Source: Veillonella infantium (GTDB lineage: Bacteria > Bacillota > Negativicutes > Veillonellales > Veillonellaceae). Taken from it: a stretch of DNA of 64,000 nucleotides. Under the pieces are notes generated by a model. The model saw only the letters and a list, made by a program, of their open reading frames with translations. It was not told the origin of the DNA and ran no database searches. A program made the translations under genes and the position numbers. Of the stretch, positions 4,238 through 24,904 are shown in pieces; within the stretch, counting starts at the first letter, position 1, and each line of letters begins with the position of its first letter. The stretch lies in the NCBI RefSeq assembly GCF_002959895.1, contig NZ_PPDD01000015.1, positions 1 through 64,000 of the forward strand, written 5' to 3'.

Positions 4238-4759
4238 TTATTTAGAAACGATGGCGCTCGTTAACGCTTCCTCATTGGTGCGCTCGCCCAACGCTTCGTT
4301 CAAACTCTCTAATTCTTCTTGTGAAAGACTTACGAGACTTTTACCTTTCACAATAGGTTTACTAAAAATACGGGATTCGCTACGACCGTAAATACTGGAG
4401 ATACAGATACCGTTATTGTTGCCATCAAGTAATGTTAGCGCAAAAGACAAATCATTACCGATATTTTCAAAGGCATTATATTTAACAAAGCCAATTTTTT
4501 GTATCGTATTGCTTTGAATATTGCGGATCGCCGCTTGTTCGGTCATCATAGTCTCAAGACCCTTAGCAGCATCGCGAATTTCGCTAACCTCTACAGATAA
4601 TTTACGTTCTAGGCTCGCACCATTGTCCCCTTGCATAAAGAAATCATATTTCTTTTTAAGGCTCCCTAAGCGAATGTGCAAGATTACACAATACACTAAC
4701 AACGCTATTACAAGGACGATGGTCGCCATGCCAATCCACGGTTGAATCGATTCGAACAT
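4238..4759 (-). CDS. DUF4446 family protein
   Basis: A 173-residue protein with one N-terminal membrane helix (about residues 10-30), a short coiled coil, and the conserved DUF4446 block IGFVKYNAFENIGNDLSFALTLLDGNNNGICISSIYGRSESRIFSKPI (about residues 88-136; quoted in outline only as IGFVKYNAFENIG and LSFALTLLDGNNNG). The family is of unknown function and in Firmicutes is often found near parAB, as here. AGGAAGG precedes the ATG. It is closely followed by the M23 peptidase gene, so a role at the cell envelope is plausible but is inference only. Confidence 0.82.
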   Translation of the reverse strand: MFESIQPWIGMATIVLVIALLVYCVILHIRLGSLKKKYDFFMQGDNGASLERKLSVEVSEIRDAAKGLETMMTEQAAIRNIQSNTIQKIGFVKYNAFENIGNDLSFALTLLDGNNNGICISSIYGRSESRIFSKPIVKGKSLVSLSQEELESLNEALGERTNEEALTSAIVSK

Positions 4760-4878
4760 GTATATTCCTTCCTATACAATCATTCAAACTCCAACACTTA
4801 ATTATACCATTCTTATTGTGAAAGTTAAATGACTGCATGCAATTTAATTTAATATGTGTAATGATAGATTAATTATAC

Positions 4879-6144
4879 CTACCCTTTTATTTCGTCAATA
4901 AATGGGCTTATCGCTCGTTCTAGTATACCATGTAGAGCCGCTATGAGTACACCGTAATTTACGATTGGTGTGCCTTGTACAACGGCACATTCAATGCGTC
5001 GTAACACCTCGCGGCGTGTGAGCATACAAGCACCACAATGGATGATTAAATCATACTGGGATACATCTTTTGGGAACGCTCCCCCACTAGTGAATTCTAG
5101 CTGTAAATCTGTATGACCTTGCTTCTTAAGAAGGTTAGGAATCTTTACAGTACCAATATCATCACATTGGCGGCGATGTGTACAGCCTTCACTGATAAGC
5201 ACCTTAGAGCCTGGTTTTAAATTCTTAATCGCTTCTACACCAGCTACTAAGTCTTGTAATTTGCCCTTAAAACGGGCCATCAAAATAGAGAATGATGTCA
5301 GCGAAATTGTATCAGGTGTCAATTCATCAACGCGATCAAAAGCTTGCGAGTCACAGATAACCATCTTAGGTGGATATTTAAGAGAGTTAATCATAGCAGG
5401 TAATTCTTCTGTTTGGCATACTAACGCTAAGCCTTTATAATCCAATATTTCACGAATAGTTTGTACTTGTGGCAAAATAAGGCGGCCCTTTGGTGCTGCA
5501 CTGTCGATAGGACATACAAGAATTATAGTATCCCCCTCTTCTACTAGGCCTTGTAATAGAGTTTGATCCCCTTCTACATCAAGTGGTGTTAACCCACCCA
5601 AGAGATCAAGTAATTCTAAACGTTTAGCTTTAGATGTAAAATCAGCTGAACCAATAACAGTAACTAATTCAGATAATCCCTTATGAGTTTCTACATAAGT
5701 AGATGCATCTGTTTTATTTTCTATGTTATTTACTTTATTATTTTCTTTGTCAATTTCTGCATTGATTTCATTTATAAATAATGCAATAGGCACATTATTT
5801 TGTTTTAATAGGCCTAACCAATGTATATCATCAGTAGTTGGTTCTTCATCGGTACGAAGCACATAAACAGCGAGATTAATCTTTTTCACAACCTCTTCTG
5901 TTTTCTCTATCCGCAATGTACCTAATTCAGTTGTATCGTCTATACCAGCTGTATCGGTAATCACCACAGGTCCTAATGGCAAAATCTCCATGGATTTGCT
6001 CACTGGGTCTGTTGTTGTTCCTGCCACCTCCGACACAAGAGATACAGGTTGATCTGTTAACATATTAATCAATGTAGACTTACCAGCGTTACAACGGCCA
6101 AAAAAGCCTATATGAGCGCGGTTTGCTTTAGGTGTTTGTTCCAT
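4879..6144 (-). CDS. hydF: [FeFe]-hydrogenase maturation GTPase HydF
   Basis: A 421-residue HydF, the GTPase scaffold on which the H-cluster of [FeFe]-hydrogenase is assembled before transfer to the enzyme. Residues 16-24 are the G1 motif GRCNAGKST, and residues 64-67 are DTAG. The C-terminal iron-sulfur cluster ligands are seen as C321-T-H323 and H369-C-G-A-C373, the pattern expected for HydF. The N-terminal GTPase, the dimerisation part and the cluster-binding part are all complete. No hydE, hydG or hydrogenase structural gene is in this window, so the partners must be elsewhere. An Asn/Lys-rich insert at about residues 133-147 looks less conserved. Confidence 0.93.
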   Translation of the reverse strand: MEQTPKANRAHIGFFGRCNAGKSTLINMLTDQPVSLVSEVAGTTTDPVSKSMEILPLGPVVITDTAGIDDTTELGTLRIEKTEEVVKKINLAVYVLRTDEEPTTDDIHWLGLLKQNNVPIALFINEINAEIDKENNKVNNIENKTDASTYVETHKGLSELVTVIGSADFTSKAKRLELLDLLGGLTPLDVEGDQTLLQGLVEEGDTIILVCPIDSAAPKGRLILPQVQTIREILDYKGLALVCQTEELPAMINSLKYPPKMVICDSQAFDRVDELTPDTISLTSFSILMARFKGKLQDLVAGVEAIKNLKPGSKVLISEGCTHRRQCDDIGTVKIPNLLKKQGHTDLQLEFTSGGAFPKDVSQYDLIIHCGACMLTRREVLRRIECAVVQGTPIVNYGVLIAALHGILERAISPFIDEIKG

Positions 6145-6275
6145 AGTCTATCCTTGTTACTTAACGTTTATATTTATTACAAAATATAGTTAATCATCTT
6201 ACAACAACATGTATTATGATCTACTAAGTTATCTTACAATATTATTATAACTCAATAAAATACCTTATATACAGT

Positions 6276-6300
6276 AAAAGCGCAGTCCGTAGACTACGCT
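6276..6300 (-). terminator. Terminator after parB
   Basis: On the minus strand AGCGTAGTC and GACTGCGCT pair (one G-T wobble) around TACG, followed by TTTT. It lies about 100 bases downstream of the parB stop and is the likely end of the parA-parB transcript. Confidence 0.75.
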
Positions 6301-6398
6301 TTCACCGTGGATTGTAAATTGTATTTATATTATACAGAATTGTTATCTATTTGTCATTACTAAATTCACATAATTCGATTCGAATTTAAGTATATCAA

Positions 6399-7328
6399 TT
6401 ATACTCTAAATTCTACGGTTTCAGTATCATCTGTGTTATCTTGACCATCCATAAAGGCAATAAGACGTTCTAATTCTGCTTCAGAGGAGAAGGCAATTTC
6501 AATCTTACCTTGAACCTTTTTACTAGCACGGAATTTAATATTTACAGGAGACCCTAAGCTTAGTTTTAAACGGTCCATAAGAGCACGTACCTCTGCAGTA
6601 CTTTGCGGCTTAGCAGCCTTCGCTTTAGGTGTCTTATTTTGCATAGACTTCACAAGGGCCTCTGCTTGACGAGCACTTAAGTCGCCCTCTTTAATACGTT
6701 CAGCAGCTTCAATTTGTTGCGCTGCACTACGCAATGCCAACAATGGACGCGCTTGACCTACTGTTAAGTCACCTTCGATGAGATCTTTTTGTACAGAATC
6801 ACATAATTTTAACAAACGAACCATATTTGCAATATAAGAACGACTGCGACCTAGGCGAGCAGAAATCATTTCTTGGGTTTGTTTATACGTATCCATTAAA
6901 CCTTGGTATGCCAAAGCTTCTTCAATTGGATCCAAGCCTTCACGTTGTAGATTTTCAACGAGGGCCACTTCTGTCATCTCTTCTGTATTATATTTTTTTA
7001 CAATAACTGGTACAGTCTCAAGGCCTGCAATGATAGCAGCACGGTAACGACGTTCACCAGCTACGATTTGATATTTATTCTTTTGTTTACGTACTACAAT
7101 TGGTTGAAAAATACCAAGATTTTTAATAGATTCAGCTAATGTTACTAAACTATCTTCATCAAAACTTTTACGTGGTTGATCTGCATTAGGAACTAACTCG
7201 GAGATTGGTAGTTCATGAATCTCCTTTTCAGGCAATACAGACTCTACCGTATCTACCTTCATTAAATTTCCAAGGCCCTTCCCCAAGCCGGATGATTTAC
7301 TTTTCTTACTTTTTACTTCTCTAGGCAT
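6399..7328 (-). CDS. parB: Chromosome partitioning protein ParB (Spo0J)
   Basis: A 309-residue ParB/Spo0J, the CTP-dependent clamp that loads at parS sites and spreads along DNA to segregate the origin region. The N-terminus has the basic GLGKGLGNLM segment, which in this family stimulates ParA. GERRYRA at residues 91-97 belongs to the CTP-binding motif. A helix-turn-helix around residues 150-170 (ISARLGRSRSYIANMVRLLKL region) recognises parS. The C-terminal part, after a Lys/Ala-rich linker, is the dimerisation domain. It lies downstream of parA in the same direction with about 160 bases between them. Five perfect parS sites lie within 4 kb, which confirms the system. Confidence 0.95.
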   Translation of the reverse strand: MPREVKSKKSKSSGLGKGLGNLMKVDTVESVLPEKEIHELPISELVPNADQPRKSFDEDSLVTLAESIKNLGIFQPIVVRKQKNKYQIVAGERRYRAAIIAGLETVPVIVKKYNTEEMTEVALVENLQREGLDPIEEALAYQGLMDTYKQTQEMISARLGRSRSYIANMVRLLKLCDSVQKDLIEGDLTVGQARPLLALRSAAQQIEAAERIKEGDLSARQAEALVKSMQNKTPKAKAAKPQSTAEVRALMDRLKLSLGSPVNIKFRASKKVQGKIEIAFSSEAELERLIAFMDGQDNTDDTETVEFRV

Positions 7329-7487: not shown

Positions 7488-8258
7488 TTATTTATTTTTT
7501 GAAGCTTTAATCACTTCTTTAGCTAGTTTAGTATATACGTCTGCCCCTTTAGATTTTGGATCATATACGATAATAGGTTCACCATAACTTGGAGCTTCGC
7601 TAAGACGTACATTACGTGGAATAATAGTCTTATATACTTTATTGCCAAAGAATTTTTTCACTTCATCAGCAACTTGAATAGATAAATTTGTACGACCATC
7701 AAACATAGTTAACAAAACGCCTTCAATTTCAAGATTTTTATTAGATGTTTGTTGCACAATTGTTATAGTTTTTACTAATTGACTAACCCCTTCTAATGCG
7801 TAGAATTCACTTTGAATCGGAATTAGTACGCTATCTGCTGCTGTAAAGGCATTTAATGTTAGCAAGCCAAGGGATGGCGGACAATCAATAATGACAAAAT
7901 CGTATTCGTCACGTACTGGTGCCAATGCTTTTTTTAACATTGTTTCACGTGAAACAACTGAAACGAGTTCCACTTCTGCTCCAGCTAATTGAATTGTTGC
8001 AGGCGCTACAAATAGCTTTTTAAGCATTGTAGGCTGAACAATATCAGCAATAGGTTCACCATCGATAAGAACATCGTGTACACAGAGTTCTAAATCATCT
8101 TTTTCAATACCTAAACCAGAGCTAGCATTACCTTGTGGATCTAAATCAACAAGCAATACTTTTTTACCAGCATCAGCCAAACAAGCGCTCAAATTCACGG
8201 ATGTTGTTGTTTTACCAACACCGCCTTTTTGATTAGTAATAGCTATAACTTTGCCCAC
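7488..8258 (-). CDS. parA: Chromosome partitioning ATPase ParA (Soj)
   Basis: A 256-residue ParA/Soj, a DNA-binding ATPase that cooperates with ParB to move and separate origin regions, and that can modulate DnaA in relatives. Residues 11-18 form the deviant Walker A KGGVGKTT; VDLDPQGNAS and FVIIDCPPSLG follow as further nucleotide-binding motifs. The start is a GTG at 8258 preceded by GAGGTGAA; the next residues are the standard KVIAITNQ. The gene contains a perfect parS site (7941-7956) within its coding sequence. It is the first gene of the parA-parB run. Confidence 0.95.
   Translation of the reverse strand: MGKVIAITNQKGGVGKTTTSVNLSACLADAGKKVLLVDLDPQGNASSGLGIEKDDLELCVHDVLIDGEPIADIVQPTMLKKLFVAPATIQLAGAEVELVSVVSRETMLKKALAPVRDEYDFVIIDCPPSLGLLTLNAFTAADSVLIPIQSEFYALEGVSQLVKTITIVQQTSNKNLEIEGVLLTMFDGRTNLSIQVADEVKKFFGNKVYKTIIPRNVRLSEAPSYGEPIIVYDPKSKGADVYTKLAKEVIKASKNK
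7941..7956. other. parS site inside parA
   Basis: A perfect 16-base palindrome TGTTTCACGTGAAACA, identical to the parS consensus bound by ParB/Spo0J. It lies within the parA coding sequence, as a parS does in Bacillus soj-spo0J loci. Confidence 0.95.
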
Positions 8259-8482
8259 TTAATTCACCTCACATGTTCGTTTAAAATATTTCGTTTTAAT
8301 TATAACATAAAACAACGATAATTACGGTAATTACAAATCAAATTCCATAAAAATTATCTATATTTTTCTACTAACTACATTCTTTAATAATACGCATATT
8401 TACATATTAACAAATAATATGATTAAATCTTATTTTTAAACCTCATTTTGTATTTCTAAAAAGCTACTATAAGAATTTTAAT

Positions 8483-8498
8483 TGTTTCACGTGAAACA
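8483..8498. other. parS site
   Basis: Perfect TGTTTCACGTGAAACA palindrome upstream of parA. Confidence 0.95.
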
Positions 8499-8550
8499 AA
8501 TTACCTTTACTTCTTCATAGCAAAATTTTGATTTAAAACATATTTGTAAA

Positions 8551-8566
8551 TGTTTCACGTGAAACA
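8551..8566. other. parS site
   Basis: Perfect TGTTTCACGTGAAACA palindrome, 52 bases beyond the previous copy. Confidence 0.95.
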
Positions 8567-8895
8567 TTTATGATTAATAAAAATAAATACTAATAATTTA
8601 CTCTCTTAACATATAATTTTAATAAAAAAATTTATATTGGAAAAATAATTTTGGTATATAAACATATACCAATCATTCAAATTTACACAAAAAAATTTAA
8701 ATCCAAAATTTATCTAAAAACAATTAATTAAAAATCAAAATTTGGCCAATGAAAATAATTTAGTCAGAAAAAATAAATCATTTAGAAAAAACAATTCATT
8801 ACAAAGCATTATTAAGATTACAATTATTAATCAAAATTTACTACTAAAATAAAATTTAATATATTGAGCAAAATTTATAGACAAAGTATTAAGAC

Positions 8896-8911
8896 TGTTT
8901 CACGTGAAACA
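8896..8911. other. parS site
   Basis: Perfect TGTTTCACGTGAAACA palindrome in the AT-rich region before the methionine synthase genes. Confidence 0.95.
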
Positions 8912-9075
8912 ATTTAATATAAATATAAAACAGTAAAATTATTAAGTTAATATAATGAGCTAAAACATTTAGAATATCACTAATAATAACTTTTAAGATT
9001 AAAATATATTCTGATATAGCTTTAAGTTATATCAATACACCACTAAATTATATGAGAATACAGGCCCTATATGCT

Positions 9076-9104
9076 TTGACAGGCTTTCATCATATCTATA
9101 TACT
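9076..9104 (+). promoter_or_regulatory. Sigma70-type promoter of the methionine synthase genes
   Basis: TTGACA (9076-9081), a 17-base spacer and TATACT (9099-9104) make a near-consensus promoter. Transcription would start near 9111, giving a leader of about 135 bases before the first gene. Confidence 0.75.
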
Positions 9105-9197
9105 ATTAACTAGATAGTAATTAGATTGATTATCTTTAATATAGTTAAATTGATTATATTACATGATCTAAATATATAAATTATAGTAAGCACACAC

Positions 9198-9228
9198 GCT
9201 CTACGGATACGCAGAGCTTTTTATTTTT
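9198..9228 (+). terminator. Terminator-like hairpin in the leader, possible attenuator
   Basis: GCTCT-A-CG and CG-C-AGAGC pair around GATA, followed by CTTTTTATTTTT. It lies between the promoter at 9076 and the ribosome site AGAGGAGG at about 9231-9239, so it would stop transcription ahead of the genes unless controlled. No known riboswitch fold was recognised in the leader. Confidence 0.6.
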
Positions 9229-9245
9229 GAAGAGGAGGCGTTTCC

Positions 9246-10013
9246 ATGCCCATCTATAACGGAATGCTTCCTGCCATCGATAAAGCAGAAGTAAAACGAT
9301 ACGCAGGACTTCGTCACGCTGAGGATTTCCCACAACAATATGTAGACGAAGCATGTAAGGAAATCCAATTATTAGCTACACCTAAAGGTGTATATCAAGA
9401 ATATGATTATGATGCAGAGACAAAAACAATTTTAAGCAATCCACCGCTTAAAATTGAAGGTTCAATCATCGAAAAACACTTAGAAAAATCTACAAAGGTC
9501 TATGTATTAGGCGTAACAGTAGGTGAAGATGTAGAAATTCGCAGTGAACAGCTTTTTAAACAAGGTAATTACACTGTAGGTTTATTGCTTGATGCAGCTG
9601 CTACAACAGCAGTAGAGCAGGTAGCTGATCAAGTAAATGAAGTTATTAATACAATCGCTAAAAAACAAGGTTATAAACCAACATGGCGATTTAGTCCTGG
9701 TTACGGTAACTGGCCACTAGAAATTCAGCCACAATTAGCTAAAATTATTAAAACAGAGATGATTGGTTTGCAAGTAACGGAGAACTATTTATTGTTTCCA
9801 CGTAAATCTGTGACAGCTATTATTGGATTAATGCCAGCTGACCAGGATATCAATACAAAGCGTGGTTGTACATCTTGTTCCCAAAAGGATTGTGCATCTC
9901 GTAAATTACCAGAAAAGGCATCTGTAACCACTAATAATAAAGGAGAAGAGAGCTGTAGTAAAACGACAGCTGAAGCCTCTGGTATCGCTATGAAAGGCCA
10001 ACCAACAGAATAA
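9246..10013 (+). CDS. Methionine synthase activation-domain protein
   Basis: A 255-residue stand-alone version of the C-terminal activation domain of B12-dependent methionine synthase, which binds S-adenosylmethionine for reductive repair of oxidised cobalamin. R148-F-S-P-G-Y-G154 matches the SAM-binding motif of the domain, and FPRKSVTAIIG follows (185-194). Cysteines at 208, 211 and 216 resemble the small Cys cluster seen in these stand-alone proteins. The ATG has AGAGGAGGCG upstream. The metH gene, which lacks this domain, begins 49 bases after the stop, so the two proteins together rebuild the full enzyme. A promoter and terminator-like hairpin precede it. Confidence 0.85.
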   Translation: MPIYNGMLPAIDKAEVKRYAGLRHAEDFPQQYVDEACKEIQLLATPKGVYQEYDYDAETKTILSNPPLKIEGSIIEKHLEKSTKVYVLGVTVGEDVEIRSEQLFKQGNYTVGLLLDAAATTAVEQVADQVNEVINTIAKKQGYKPTWRFSPGYGNWPLEIQPQLAKIIKTEMIGLQVTENYLLFPRKSVTAIIGLMPADQDINTKRGCTSCSQKDCASRKLPEKASVTTNNKGEESCSKTTAEASGIAMKGQPTE

Positions 10014-10029
10014 TGTTTCACGTGAAACA
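10014..10029. other. parS site between the activation gene and metH
   Basis: Perfect TGTTTCACGTGAAACA, beginning on the base right after the stop codon of the upstream gene. It is the fifth and outermost copy. Confidence 0.95.
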
Positions 10030-21759: not shown

Positions 21760-21790
21760 ATGCATTGTCCTTAAGTCCTAAGAATAGAAA

Positions 21791-21816
21791 AACTTGGCAG
21801 CAGCGCCAAGTTTTTT
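21791..21816. terminator. Hairpin between rpmH and rnpA
   Basis: AACTTGGC and GCCAAGTT pair around AGCAGC, with T-runs on both sides. On the minus strand it lies after rpmH and before rnpA, so it could reduce transcription into rnpA and explain higher rpmH expression. Confidence 0.8.
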
Positions 21817-21838
21817 CTCCTGCCTAACAGCTATTATA

Positions 21839-21973
21839 TTATGCAGATAAGCGTTTTCTGCCTTTTGCACGTCTTCTTTTTAAAACGAGACGGCCACCGA
21901 TAGTTTTCATGCGTTCACGGAAACCATGGGTACGTTTTCTCCAAAGAGTATTTGGTTGGTAAGTACGTTTCAT
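21839..21973 (-). CDS. rpmH: 50S ribosomal protein L34
   Basis: A 44-residue L34, too short for many gene callers. Translation of the minus strand reads [18 protein letters not shown], then [20 protein letters not shown] and RKRLSA, an unmistakable L34 with its many Arg and Lys. AGGAGGTG lies upstream of the ATG at 21973. As in nearly all bacteria it stands beside rnpA and close to dnaA, which is divergently transcribed here. The space between rpmH and dnaA (1.35 kb) is unusually long and holds giant palindromes and oriC. Confidence 0.97.
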
Positions 21974-22068
21974 TAGTAAAACACCTCCTCGTCATTTGTA
22001 TTGTTTTACTTATACCATAACAGGGTAATTATAGAGTTAAAACGTAAATTTGTCAATATTTTAGGGCT

Positions 22069-22300
22069 ATTCTGAAAGACTTTTATATAGATTTTACTTA
22101 AATCCGATAGAACTTAAAACTGATACTACTTTTATAGGAGCAGGAATAGATGTGGTTTTCTCCCTCCATACGACACGTAAGTCGGTCAAAAATCCACATC
22201 TATTCCTGCTCCTAACACATTTTAATGACTACTATAACACCTACTACCAGTATAAAAAGTAGTATCAGTTTTTATAGCAAATCTAAAAGTCTTTCAGAAT
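22069..22300. repeat. Giant imperfect palindrome 1 with conserved tip
   Basis: A nested inverted repeat of 232 bases. Perfect 17-base outer arms lie at 22069-22085 and 22284-22300; middle arms (AAAACTGATACTAC-type) at 22116-22136 and 22251-22272; perfect 21-base inner arms at 22135-22155 and 22194-22214. The tip (22156-22193) contains CTCCATACGACACGTAAGTC and then GGTCAAAA. No open reading frame is present. It is the first of three such elements. Confidence 0.85.
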
Positions 22301-22346
22301 ACGGATCTAAGATTAACAAATTTTACCTTTTAACCGCTGGGGGAGG

Positions 22347-22536
22347 AGATGAGAATGATGTTACGTTTCCAGGGGGAGGAATATAGGGCTCCTTCATCGC
22401 TCCATACGACGCGTAAAGTCGCTCAAAAGGACCCTATATTCCCTCCCTAAGTAAACCCTAAACTCACCTTACACACCACTACACGATGTAAACGTAACAT
22501 CAATTATTAGCAATACAAGAACTCTCATTCTAATCT
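22347..22536. repeat. Giant imperfect palindrome 2 with conserved tip
   Basis: Nested arms: AGATGAGAATGA-type at 22347-22358 with 22525-22536, perfect GATGTTACGTTT at 22357-22368 with 22490-22501, and GGAATATAGGG at 22378-22388 with 22432-22442. The tip (22389-22431) contains GCTCCATACGACGCGTAAAG and TCGCTCAAAA, almost the same as palindrome 1. The element is flanked by near-identical direct repeats, CAAATTTTACCTTTT (22317-22331) and CAAATTTACCTTTT (22549-22562). Confidence 0.82.
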
Positions 22537-22586
22537 TTTTATATAAGACAAATTTACCTTTTGATCTCTAGTTAGAAAGAGGGGAA

Positions 22587-22608
22587 GAATAGATGTGGTT
22601 TTCTCCCT
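22587..22608. repeat. Partial copy of palindrome 1 left arm
   Basis: Twenty-two bases identical to 22144-22165 (beginning GAATAGATGTGG, ending TTCTCCCT), followed by a decayed CCCTCTACGCC. There is no matching right arm, so this is a broken or partial copy. Confidence 0.75.
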
Positions 22609-22628
22609 TTTCCCTCTACGCCATATAA

Positions 22629-22914
22629 AATTACAATTTGTTTTATTAACAGAAGTTTATTGTTTAGTAACGATGATTGGATAGTTTCTAGATTACTTTT
22701 CCACAATTATTATTTATTAACATGGTTATCTATTATTGTTAGAAAGGGGATTGATACTAATTTTTAAGCGACTTGCGTCAGAATGGAGCGAGAAAATTAG
22801 TATCAATCCCTTCCTAAAAGTAATCTAGAAACAAATGTAAAAATAGATGGATAAAAATTAGATTTATAACTCATCGTTACTTAGTTAAATATAGTTCATA
22901 TACAAATTGTAATT
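22629..22914. repeat. Giant imperfect palindrome 3, tip in reverse orientation
   Basis: A nested inverted repeat of 286 bases: perfect 13-base arms at 22629-22641 and 22902-22914, AGTAACGATGA at 22666-22676 with 22871-22881, perfect 17-base arms at 22684-22700 and 22816-22832, and an 18-base inner pair at 22747-22764 and 22793-22810. The tip (22765-22792) reads, on the minus strand, CTCGCTCCATTCTGACGCAA then GTCGCTTA, the same tip as palindromes 1 and 2 reversed. Confidence 0.85.
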
Positions 22915-23013
22915 CAATAAAAGTAGTTTTCAGTCCTCCCCCAAAAGTAATTGATGAACAAAAGATGAGATAATTACTGAGTTATTAACATTTCTCCTTC
23001 AGATAATCAAAAG

Positions 23014-23315
23014 TTATCCACAGAATAAATGACAAACTAGTGATTTTTTGGTACAATCATACTTGAAATTAGGAAAAAGTATATATTTTTATAAGTTTTT
23101 GTTGGATAACTTTTAAGGTTATCCACATTTTTTCTCTTTTAACCTGTGTAATCTATAAAGTCAGTTATTATCTGGTTGGAAGAGAATTTTATTTTCACTT
23201 ATTCACAGGTTGTGTACAGGTTATTCACAGGAATAACAGGTTTTTCCACAGCTTTCACAATAGTTATACACATTATTCCTAAAGTTATACACATTTATCG
23301 CAATAGTTATACACA
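23014..23315. other. oriC, left DnaA-box cluster
   Basis: Upstream of dnaA lie perfect boxes TTATCCACA at 23014-23022 and 23119-23127, and one-mismatch forms at 23199 and 23221 (TTATTCACA), 23242 (TTTTCCACA), 23264, 23285 and 23307 (TTATACACA). All read in the same direction. The last three are regularly spaced by 21-22 bases, a typical array for DnaA assembly and for dnaA autoregulation. Confidence 0.9.
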
Positions 23316-23326
23316 AGAGGCACGTC

Positions 23327-24904
23327 ATGCAATCATTTGATTTGAATAATATATGGGAACATATATTGCAAGAGGCGAAAAAGAACATGCAACATTTGCC
23401 TGACGCGTTGTACTTGCGCGTCACGTCATCGTTGATTCCCATGTCTCTCGACAGTCATTCGATCCATATAGGGGTCATGCAAACATTTGTTAAAAACTTA
23501 ATCGATCAGCAGCCGCAGATTAGCAAGGCTTTACAGGATGCTATTACTACGGTTATCGGTTCCCATCGGGATATGGTGTTATTTGATTTCAATCAAGAGA
23601 GTATAGATACTACCTTTGTTGATGAAAGTCTCATCGATGATGCACCTGTAGTGGCTCCACCGATGCCATTACCGCCTGTGGTAGAGGAAAAAGCTCAACA
23701 AGATGAGTTCTATAAACCAATCTATCAAGAGCCTGTCTATATCGACCGCGCACCAGCTCCTGTGAATATTCCAGATGAGCCAATGGTAGCGCCTAGTAAA
23801 ACAGTTGAAACTACAACACCTACATTACAGTCTGATAATGTACCTGTGGATTTATCCTTATCTAACCTTAATCCAGCGTACCGTTTTGACAACTACGTTA
23901 CAGGCAACGCGAACCGCATTCCATTTGGGGCGGCTCAAAATGTAGCTGAGTTCCCAGGCGGCGACTATAATCCGCTCTTTATTTATGGCCCTTCAGGTCT
24001 AGGTAAAACGCATTTGATGCACGCCATCGGCAACGCTATCAAGGAAAATCATCCTCACATGAAGGTTATGTCCATTACGAGCGAAAACTTTATGAACATT
24101 TTCGTAGAAACATTGCAGCGTAACCAAGGTAAATTGTTCCGCAACACATTCCGCAACATCGACGTGCTCATGATTGACGATATTCAGTTCCTTGAAAGTC
24201 GTGAAAGTACGAAAACTGAGCTATTTAATACGTTCAATGAGTTATTAAATAACAACAAGCAAATCGTCCTCACCTCTGATACGATGCCAAACGATATGGA
24301 GCAATTCGAAGACCGTCTTCGTTCTCGTTTCCAAGCTGGCTATATTGCTACCATGGAAAATCCAGATTTAGAAACACGCATTGCCATCTTTAGATCTTTG
24401 CTGGAACGAGAATATAAGAAAAATCGCGTTATCCGCATCGATAACGACTCCATCAACTATGTGGCATTACAATTTAGCGAAAATGTCCGCGTGTTGCAAG
24501 GGGCTTTCACAAAATTAATCGGTACCGCATCCATCGATCAACGTCTTGAATCTATCGATCTAGAATACACTAAACAAGCCTTGGCTGGCCTCGTTCACAC
24601 CGAAGAGGTGAACATGGTCACTATTGAAAGTATCCAGAATTTTGTAAGTTCTTATTTCAGTATTAAAAAGCAAGACTTGCTCGGCAAGAAGCGTAAGGCA
24701 CAGTTCGCATTTCCACGCCAAGTGGCCATGTATCTATGCCGCGATATGATCAATGAAAGTTATCCGCAAATCGCAGCAGCCTTCTCTCGTGACCATACGA
24801 CAATTCTCCATGCGTACGATAAAATTACGAAGGAAATTGAACGAAACGAAGAAACTAAGAACATGATTTCTGAAATTAAACAGAAATTAACAACCTGTGG
24901 ATAA
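23327..24904 (+). CDS. dnaA: Chromosomal replication initiator DnaA
   Basis: A 525-residue DnaA. Domain I occupies about residues 1-85. Domain II is a long Pro/Val-rich acidic linker (about 95-180). The AAA+ domain III begins near LNPAYRFDNYVTGNANR, with Walker A GPSGLGKTH (about 222-230), Walker B VLMIDDIQF (about 285) and DRLRSRFQAG. Domain IV ends with the DNA-binding signature AFSRDHTTILHAYDKI (about 487-502). The linker makes it some 70 residues longer than the B. subtilis protein. The stop codon lies inside a DnaA box. AAGAGG precedes the ATG at suitable spacing. DnaA boxes flank the gene on both sides. Confidence 0.97.
   Translation: MQSFDLNNIWEHILQEAKKNMQHLPDALYLRVTSSLIPMSLDSHSIHIGVMQTFVKNLIDQQPQISKALQDAITTVIGSHRDMVLFDFNQESIDTTFVDESLIDDAPVVAPPMPLPPVVEEKAQQDEFYKPIYQEPVYIDRAPAPVNIPDEPMVAPSKTVETTTPTLQSDNVPVDLSLSNLNPAYRFDNYVTGNANRIPFGAAQNVAEFPGGDYNPLFIYGPSGLGKTHLMHAIGNAIKENHPHMKVMSITSENFMNIFVETLQRNQGKLFRNTFRNIDVLMIDDIQFLESRESTKTELFNTFNELLNNNKQIVLTSDTMPNDMEQFEDRLRSRFQAGYIATMENPDLETRIAIFRSLLEREYKKNRVIRIDNDSINYVALQFSENVRVLQGAFTKLIGTASIDQRLESIDLEYTKQALAGLVHTEEVNMVTIESIQNFVSSYFSIKKQDLLGKKRKAQFAFPRQVAMYLCRDMINESYPQIAAAFSRDHTTILHAYDKITKEIERNEETKNMISEIKQKLTTCG

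Follow-up and report, generated by a model that had tools for sequence, protein, structure and literature searches.

Why do three long nested palindromes lie side by side between rpmH and dnaA, beside the replication origin of Veillonella infantium, and are they peculiar to this place? The question is raised by a stretch of 64,000 nucleotides of this genome (hereafter the window), in which rpmH starts at about 21973 on the minus strand and dnaA occupies 23327–24904 on the plus strand.

Palindromes in the Origin Region

An earlier note, made from the sequence alone, described three nested palindromes with a shared tip in this spacer, and all three are indeed present. Element A, on the minus strand, is wider than had been noted: by inverted-repeat search the whole nested palindrome covers 22046–22323, with outer arms at 22046–22088 and 22281–22323 (79% identity), middle arms at 22116–22133 and 22255–22272 (18/18) and inner arms at 22135–22159 and 22190–22214 (24/25). 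Element B, also on the minus strand, extends over about 22349–22531, with outer arms at about 22349–22355 and 22524–22531, middle arms at 22356–22371 and 22487–22502 (94%) and inner arms at about 22370–22388 and 22432–22448 (88% for 22373–22388 with 22432–22447). Element C, at 22624–22919 on the plus strand, is inverted relative to A and B; its outermost arms are at 22624–22641 and 22902–22919 (89%), its outer arms at 22684–22700 and 22816–22832 (17/17) and its inner arms at 22747–22764 and 22793–22810 (18/18). The second of two covariance models described below (R2) matches A at 22144–22206 on the minus strand (44.3 bits), B at 22380–22442 on the minus strand (47.2 bits) and C at 22748–22808 on the plus strand (66.9 bits). 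When folded as single-stranded DNA, A, B and C are more stable than dinucleotide shuffles by z = −12.0, −4.1 and −6.4, and none of 200, 200 and 100 shuffles, respectively, is as stable; a chance origin is rejected by these folding controls together with the conservation across species.

The tips of A and B are identical at 18 of 20 bases, and C carries the tip in reverse. Of the arms, which had been called completely different, the inner stems do differ, while the middle stem of A (CTGATACTACTTTT) resembles by eye the inner stem of C (TTGATACTAATTTT). No ORF of 80 or more amino acids lies in 21774–23327, in line with the claim that there is no protein frame inside, and no Rfam family reaches its cut-off within the window.

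Further pieces are found around the three elements. The stretch 22587–22608 is an exact repeat of the left inner arm of A with the edge of the tip, and has no partner arm, and about 22925–22963 corresponds, by eye comparison with the loci L040–L043 and L047, to a right-arm remnant of a type D element that relatives carry next to dnaA. Both fragments are traces of past rearrangement. The rpmH promoter, TTGACA-17-TATAAT at 22028–22056 on the minus strand, has its −35 region inside the outermost arm of A. A dnaA promoter-like site, ATGACA-17-TACAAT, is located at 23029–23057 on the plus strand; relatives have the −35 region of this site inside element D, as part of its outermost arm.

The rpmH–dnaA spacer was read in the other 13 genomes of the genus. 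In G001 and G006, a contig end cuts the spacer or rpmH was not found; all 11 remaining spacers harbor nested hairpins, one intact hairpin and one chimera in G007 and at least two in each of the others. In these spacers the better-folding strand is the minus strand for hairpins on the rpmH side and the plus strand for dnaA-side hairpins. Depending on the species, A and B occur more than once, are missing, or have become fused at the tip to form chimeras. The chimeric hairpins L043, L047 and L040 (oriC) and L091 (at the bioD locus) pair poorly, with the left arm from one copy and the right arm from another, joined at the tip. In L050 (G002), at about 1975–2273, tandem repeats of approximately 55 bp stand between two oriC hairpins, and G013 has one unit at the same place.

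R2 gives no match in the rpmH–dnaA loci of 14 genomes from three other genera of the family, and a general property of the rpmH–dnaA spacers of this family is thereby ruled out. In L054, from another genus of the family (G023, in which rpmH was not located), tandem repeats of approximately 180 bp are found upstream of dnaA; at their end stands a single 20-bp palindrome, its loop 35 nt long and its tip unrelated.

Dispersed Copies and Their Range

The three elements belong to a dispersed family of long intergenic hairpins, whose members turned up, within our search, in Veillonella and in one genome of a sister genus. The first covariance model (R1) was built from 15 cores and the second from 25 diverse cores, both partly from genomes that were later searched, and copies that related genomes share at one place do not count as independent. 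Already with the first model, weaker copies were found elsewhere in the genomes; the ones inspected form hairpins of about 20 bp, in which a tip of this kind caps an unrelated stem. At E ≤ 0.1, R2 matches number at least 17, 11, 4, 1, 9 and 17 in G000–G005, zero in G006, and at least 17, 20, 10, 19, 17, 19 and 5 in G007–G013, these being lower bounds because scoring was limited to the best 150 candidates in each genome, which also makes absences less firm. Nine of the 14 genomes of the genus hold at least 10 matches (range 0–20), G003 has a single match, and G006 is the one in which R2 found no copy. Making such a model and searching Veillonella genomes with it was the check set beforehand, and it yielded many further copies whose arms pair.

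Outside the genus, G014, from a second genus, has at least 22 matches at E ≤ 0.1. Among the best 150 candidates per genome, six g3 genomes have none, and seven g4 genomes have 0–2 weak matches each (four of the seven with any, best E 2e-4). In a search of 300 genomes of the class with stricter filters and the best 18 candidates scored per genome, 14 genomes match at E ≤ 0.001, namely 13 of the 14 of the same genus and G014 of the sister genus, and no other. The exact tip pattern is also found in V. parvula SKV38, V. rogosae JCM 15642 and Veillonella sp. T11011-6.

A Conserved Tip on Variable Stems

The tip of A (22160–22189) reads GACCGACTTACG-TGT-CGTATGGAGGGAG on the minus strand, with two tandem G.A mismatches; that of B (22393–22427, edges approximate) reads GAGCGACTTTACG-CGT-CGTATGGAGCGA on the minus strand, and that of C (22765–22792) reads TAAGCGACTTGCGTCAGAATGGAGCGAG on the plus strand. 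The tip is best described as tandem G.A mismatches plus a small apical hairpin (GCGACTT...GGAGC) on the complement of the strand given in the earlier note. The choice of strand in that note was probably wrong: all 28 oriC inner hairpins compared, which represent 21 distinct cores and were delimited by hand with chimeric and degenerate ones excluded, fold better as the complement. On the better-folding strand, the core of types A, B and D is 5′-GA-NN-GA-C-TT-(apical stem)-T-G-GA-N′N′-GA, in which two tandem G.A/A.G mismatches flank covarying Watson–Crick pairs (GC/GC, CC/GG or CT/AG). The outer G.A pair is missing or altered in types C and E and in G002 and G013. The distant G003 has by eye the same inner core with A-T replacing C-G; its oriC hairpins, assigned by eye, are without an R2 match, and its two rows are scored as unpaired there in the alignment of 21 cores.

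Apical loops of the type GN(1–3)A closed by C-G or G-C are found in 18 of 31 distinct apical sequences, as compared with 2.9 on average and never more than 10 across 2000 letter shuffles, the sequences being related to one another. In DNA, tandem G.A pairs and small loops of the GNA type are both known for their great stability. A K-turn reading of the tip was dropped, as no 3-nt bulge is seen beside the G.A pairs. In some tips (G012:1800306, G012:293759, L076 in G003, and L049/L050), a longer GGCC-rich hairpin replaces the short apical loop. To judge from their sequences, such tips, present at several loci and in several clades, look as if the tip had been exchanged between loci.

The reasoning that a constant tip with covarying stems means retained pairing is borne out by three covariation counts. 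In the 21 distinct oriC cores, 79.5% of the cells in the inner stems and core are paired, compared with 61.2% after shuffling and 41.7–60.7% with slid partners, and double changes occur in 13 of 16 pairs. For the inner stems and core of the 25 diverse cores, the covariation score is 0.606 (0.198 shuffled, at most 0.238 slid). For the outer stem of 16 full-length copies, left from 31 matched stretches by a redundancy filter at 85% (one that would also discard stretches longer than 240 nt), it is 0.604 (0.154 shuffled, at most 0.187 slid), with compensated double changes in all 12 pairs outside a fixed ATGGG. Stem pairing is kept while the stem sequence turns over, and the tip is conserved.

Many dispersed copies extend beyond the length of the model, and a second module (ATGGGAC / GGGCCCCAT) is found in some of them. 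In 15 of 16 dispersed copies with this module the length is 153–156 nt and in one it is 166 nt, including 12-nt flanks, under a search pattern that permitted large length differences, yet fixed both modules. Among the 18 non-oriC matches of G012 the second module is exact in seven, partial in three and absent in eight, and it is absent from the window. The middle arms enclose 116–121 nt in dispersed copies and 112–121 nt at oriC in the window and eight relatives, with 128–150 nt in G002, G003 and G013.

Individual loci give the same picture at closer range. Between orthologous places the stems have diverged through paired changes, transversions included; for example, six stems at a nitroreductase locus have six differing positions, and 20–22 of their 22–23 pairs are Watson–Crick, the rest being G.T. 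Similar tips recur at loci with unrelated stems. In G002, the two oriC elements, a copy about 5 kb from dnaA and one at bioD have nearly the same long GGCC-rich tip, and copies on contig C5 of this genome have short tips instead. At a putatively orthologous place 26 kb from oriC, G007 has AGCTCGCTT and G012 has AGGTCACTA. Behind a 492-codon frame common to G000 and G013, two genomes with 68% identity between their DnaA proteins, both the tip and the pairing have been retained.

Pairing is not indispensable for each copy, as seen in the mismatched arms of the chimeras L040, L043, L047 and L091 and in the bioD locus of G005 and G011, where one copy is without the tip and the second half, and a plain terminator-like hairpin remains. 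In G003, G004, G009 and G013, the bioD locus has neither an intact copy nor an alignable empty site. In the bioD locus of G008 (L102), two plus-strand genes, at 4719–5474 (251 aa) and 5539–6906 (455 aa), are located between a minus- and a plus-strand hairpin; neither has a Pfam family above cut-off, and both are absent from the other hairpin-bearing bioD loci read. The gene pair is possibly cargo of a slot flanked by hairpins.

Position on the Chromosome

In five single-contig genomes, with copies within 5 kb merged into one site and oriC left out, the origin half of the chromosome contains 11/11, 12/14, 7/8, 13/14 and 13/14 of the sites (one-sided p = 0.0005, 0.0065, 0.035, 0.0009 and 0.0009, the genomes not being independent). 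Altogether, 55 of 61 non-oriC sites in these complete genomes lie within 20% of the genome length of oriC; sites outside the origin half number 2, 1, 1 and 1 in four of the five, and there is none in G005. As a control, 20 evenly spaced 15-kb samples of G012 gave 31 other strong hairpins, mostly short-looped, divided 12:19 between the origin half and the far half, against 13:1 for family sites in this genome (Fisher p = 0.0009). The family crowds around the origin, and the other strong hairpins of the G012 control are without such clustering. The bias could stem from a better conserved gene order near oriC.

Five parS sites are found within 2.1 kb (7941–10029 of the window) beside parA/parB, 12–15 kb from the palindromes. 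Tight parS clusters are similarly present in most of the other 13 genomes of the genus, and G006 has one exact site.

What the Hairpins May Do

What we say about function is what we infer from the observed family, its pairing and its clustering. We read the hairpins, with a probability of about 0.4, as DNA-level landmarks of the origin domain that are recognized at the tip. The palindromes would extrude as hairpins or cruciforms, helped by negative supercoiling, which at oriC would act between the divergent rpmH and dnaA promoters. One protein common to all copies would read the tip with its tandem G.A pairs and its small apical loop, often of the GNA/GNNA type, and would also read the second module where present, and the hairpins thus bound would mark the origin domain for chromosome organization, segregation or initiation control. 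With pairing and spacing as the sole requirements, stem sequence would be free to change; the arms may be kept perfect partly by template-switch repair between them, and some copies directly behind genes probably act as bidirectional terminators as well. The proposal in its full form, that 10–20 extruded hairpins of defined geometry delimit the origin domain, flank the dnaA–rpmH promoters, are read by shape at the tip and are kept perfect via template switching, is possible, although we regard it as doubtful.

A DNA element is preferred because the stems are 96% Watson–Crick with low G.T, because no common transcription direction exists and because GN(1–3)A loops are frequent. Of 989 stem pairs, 953 are Watson–Crick, a share inflated because the stems were cut out by Watson–Crick score; 16 (1.6%) are G.T and six A.C. 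An RNA helix under selection would be expected to have more G.T than this. The excess of G.T over A.C (16:6, p = 0.05; 11:5 in distinct contexts, p = 0.2) leans weakly toward one single strand, possibly RNA. That the family works at the RNA level, as a transcribed structured RNA, an elaborate bidirectional terminator or a 3′-UTR element whose tip is bound by an RNA-binding protein or by RNA polymerase, is somewhat unlikely but has several observations in its favor. Stem covariation is expected of it, one strand folds better in all 28 oriC inner hairpins, tandem G.A pairs are present, and a terminator-like hairpin survives the loss of the tip at bioD in G005 and G011. By mechanical ORFs of G012, 12 of 18 non-oriC matches are 13–188 nt from the end of an ORF of at least 139 aa with the tip strand antisense to it, also in accord with RNA; two are near the end of a same-sense ORF, one of these also being among the antisense 12, and five have no ORF longer than 100 aa ending that near. 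No single direction of transcription fits the contexts of all copies.

Of 39 arm pairs from dispersed copies, 17 have both an A-run and a T-run at the inner stem, and therefore, on sequence grounds, some copies may terminate transcription; this is not the common property of the family, as the pair of runs is present in 0 of 11 oriC arm pairs, and a T-run after the stem, the mark of an intrinsic terminator, is found in 18 of the 39 dispersed arm pairs and in 2 of the 11 at oriC. Transcription ending at the inner stem would leave the second half of the outer module unmade, and a terminator function leaves the clustering at the origin unexplained, since other hairpins do not cluster. Around the oriC set, promoter-like sites are at chance level (4, against a shuffle mean of 7.0); beyond the rpmH and dnaA promoters there are two weak ones, at 22933–22906 and 22917–22888 on the minus strand, from which transcription could run leftwards through the set. 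An Rfam search of eight further loci gives no match at cut-off and a single one below it, to the miRNA precursor model RF04095 (37.3 bits against a cut-off of 79, E 0.00075) in an oriC hairpin of G003 (L051, raw coordinates 864–966), taken as a chance likeness to a long hairpin.

The palindromes may also have no present function for the host, being relic or selfish sequences that dispersed long ago by inverted duplication and recombination, with arms kept complementary by template switching at replication, tips kept by exchange between copies, and survival best near the origin. We consider this unlikely, yet the duplication of flanks in inverted form, which the earlier note had offered as its other explanation, is in part real. 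On the rpmH side, both in the window (element A) and in several relatives, the outermost arm repeats the rpmH −35 region in inverted form. Five relatives show the corresponding arrangement for dnaA, with the −35 region of this gene copied in inverted orientation in the outermost arm of their dnaA-side element D (arms of 21–24 nt, 18–24 matched). Furthermore, the left arm of A in the window has GAGCAGG, matching its own right arm, at a place where five relatives have GGGGAGG, as though it had been rewritten to fit its partner, the outcome that template switching would give. According to PMC8794818, hairpins can be both created and maintained by this process. The similar tips at loci with unrelated arms, such as the long GGCC-rich tip of G002, and the copy numbers and chimeras that vary between species also agree with relics. 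Of inert relics, in turn, one would not expect that sequence modules and a length of 153–156 nt are kept despite unrelated stems, nor that tip and pairing persist behind the 492-codon frame in both G000 and G013. In blastn, which would miss copies sharing the tip alone, the bioD cluster has no relative in plasmids or phages and the oriC stretch has none in phages.

If the hairpins mark the origin domain, Veillonella would have a counterpart to parS-type sites that is read by shape; if template switching alone keeps them, they would provide a clear example from nature of hairpins upheld by a mutational process. V. parvula SKV38 carries the hairpins, and therefore both readings, domain mark and mutational maintenance, can be tested.

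Relation to Known Systems

It is very improbable that the family is an ordinary member of a described repeat class such as REP/BIME, MITE or parS-like repeats, although its copies are dispersed, intergenic, palindromic and often in opposed pairs; against this, stems are not conserved and copies number about 20 at most. Like REP/BIME, the Veillonella hairpins are dispersed between genes, often behind them, and in opposed orientations. REP/BIME elements are, however, a conserved palindrome of approximately 20–40 bp in very many copies, whereas the Veillonella family has 0–20 matches per genome of the genus among the best 150 candidates, fully variable stem sequence, a length of 150 nt and more, and a clustering at the origin. 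Membership in REP/RAYT is rejected, as G007, with 18 model matches, has no match to the Y1 transposase family PF01797. Matches to PF01797 number 0 to 14 per genome in G000–G013, with none in G001 and G007; elsewhere they look like insertion sequences, many having the same score within a genome.

MITEs and Correia-type elements are foldback elements of about 150 nt between genes, as here. Copies of a MITE share terminal repeats, whereas the arms of the Veillonella hairpins are unrelated between loci, and it is the tip and the inner module that are shared; shared terminal inverted repeats were not found, all 12 outer-stem pairs beyond ATGGG varying with compensation. Plasmid single-strand origins and other hairpin sites of single-stranded DNA have variable stems and a conserved loop that is read on folded DNA. 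The Veillonella hairpins differ from plasmid single-strand origins in being chromosomal and in many copies, and no replication or relaxase gene is seen beside the copies looked at. In viral contigs a 22-base tip pattern has no match, and a 19-base pattern has one (L154), with no palindrome there and no 31-mers shared with the window. A phage or plasmid origin is rejected from these patterns and from blastn, by which copies sharing the tip alone would be missed.

As far as the accessible text of PMC8632094 describes them, the HMP-PP riboswitch and the HRC-8-4 motif likewise have a terminator-like stem and conserved tip nucleotides; the Veillonella hairpins differ in stems usable in both directions, in an outer module at fixed spacing, in having no constant downstream gene in the loci read, and in lying also between divergent promoters. 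In the open-access literature searched, including the accessible text of PMC8632094, PMC7160235, PMC4666352, PMC8040213 and PMC8794818, no description of the hairpin family was found, and within this literature it is apparently undescribed.

With parS/ParB the family shares the presence of several sites around oriC. The parS motif (TGTTTCACGTGAAACA, up to two mismatches) is found in G000 only at 7941–10029 and not at the palindromes, and identity with parS is rejected, parS forming a separate compact cluster. In parS the duplex sequence is kept; in the Veillonella hairpins pairing is kept instead. REP/BIME, MITE and parS thus each differ from the family in a defining feature tested here. Dispersed bacterial palindromes are normally recognized by shared sequence, and here geometry is kept, stem sequence is free and the copies crowd around the origin. 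In kind this is a family of dispersed palindromic elements, set apart by free stems, a kept geometry with short modules, and crowding at the origin.
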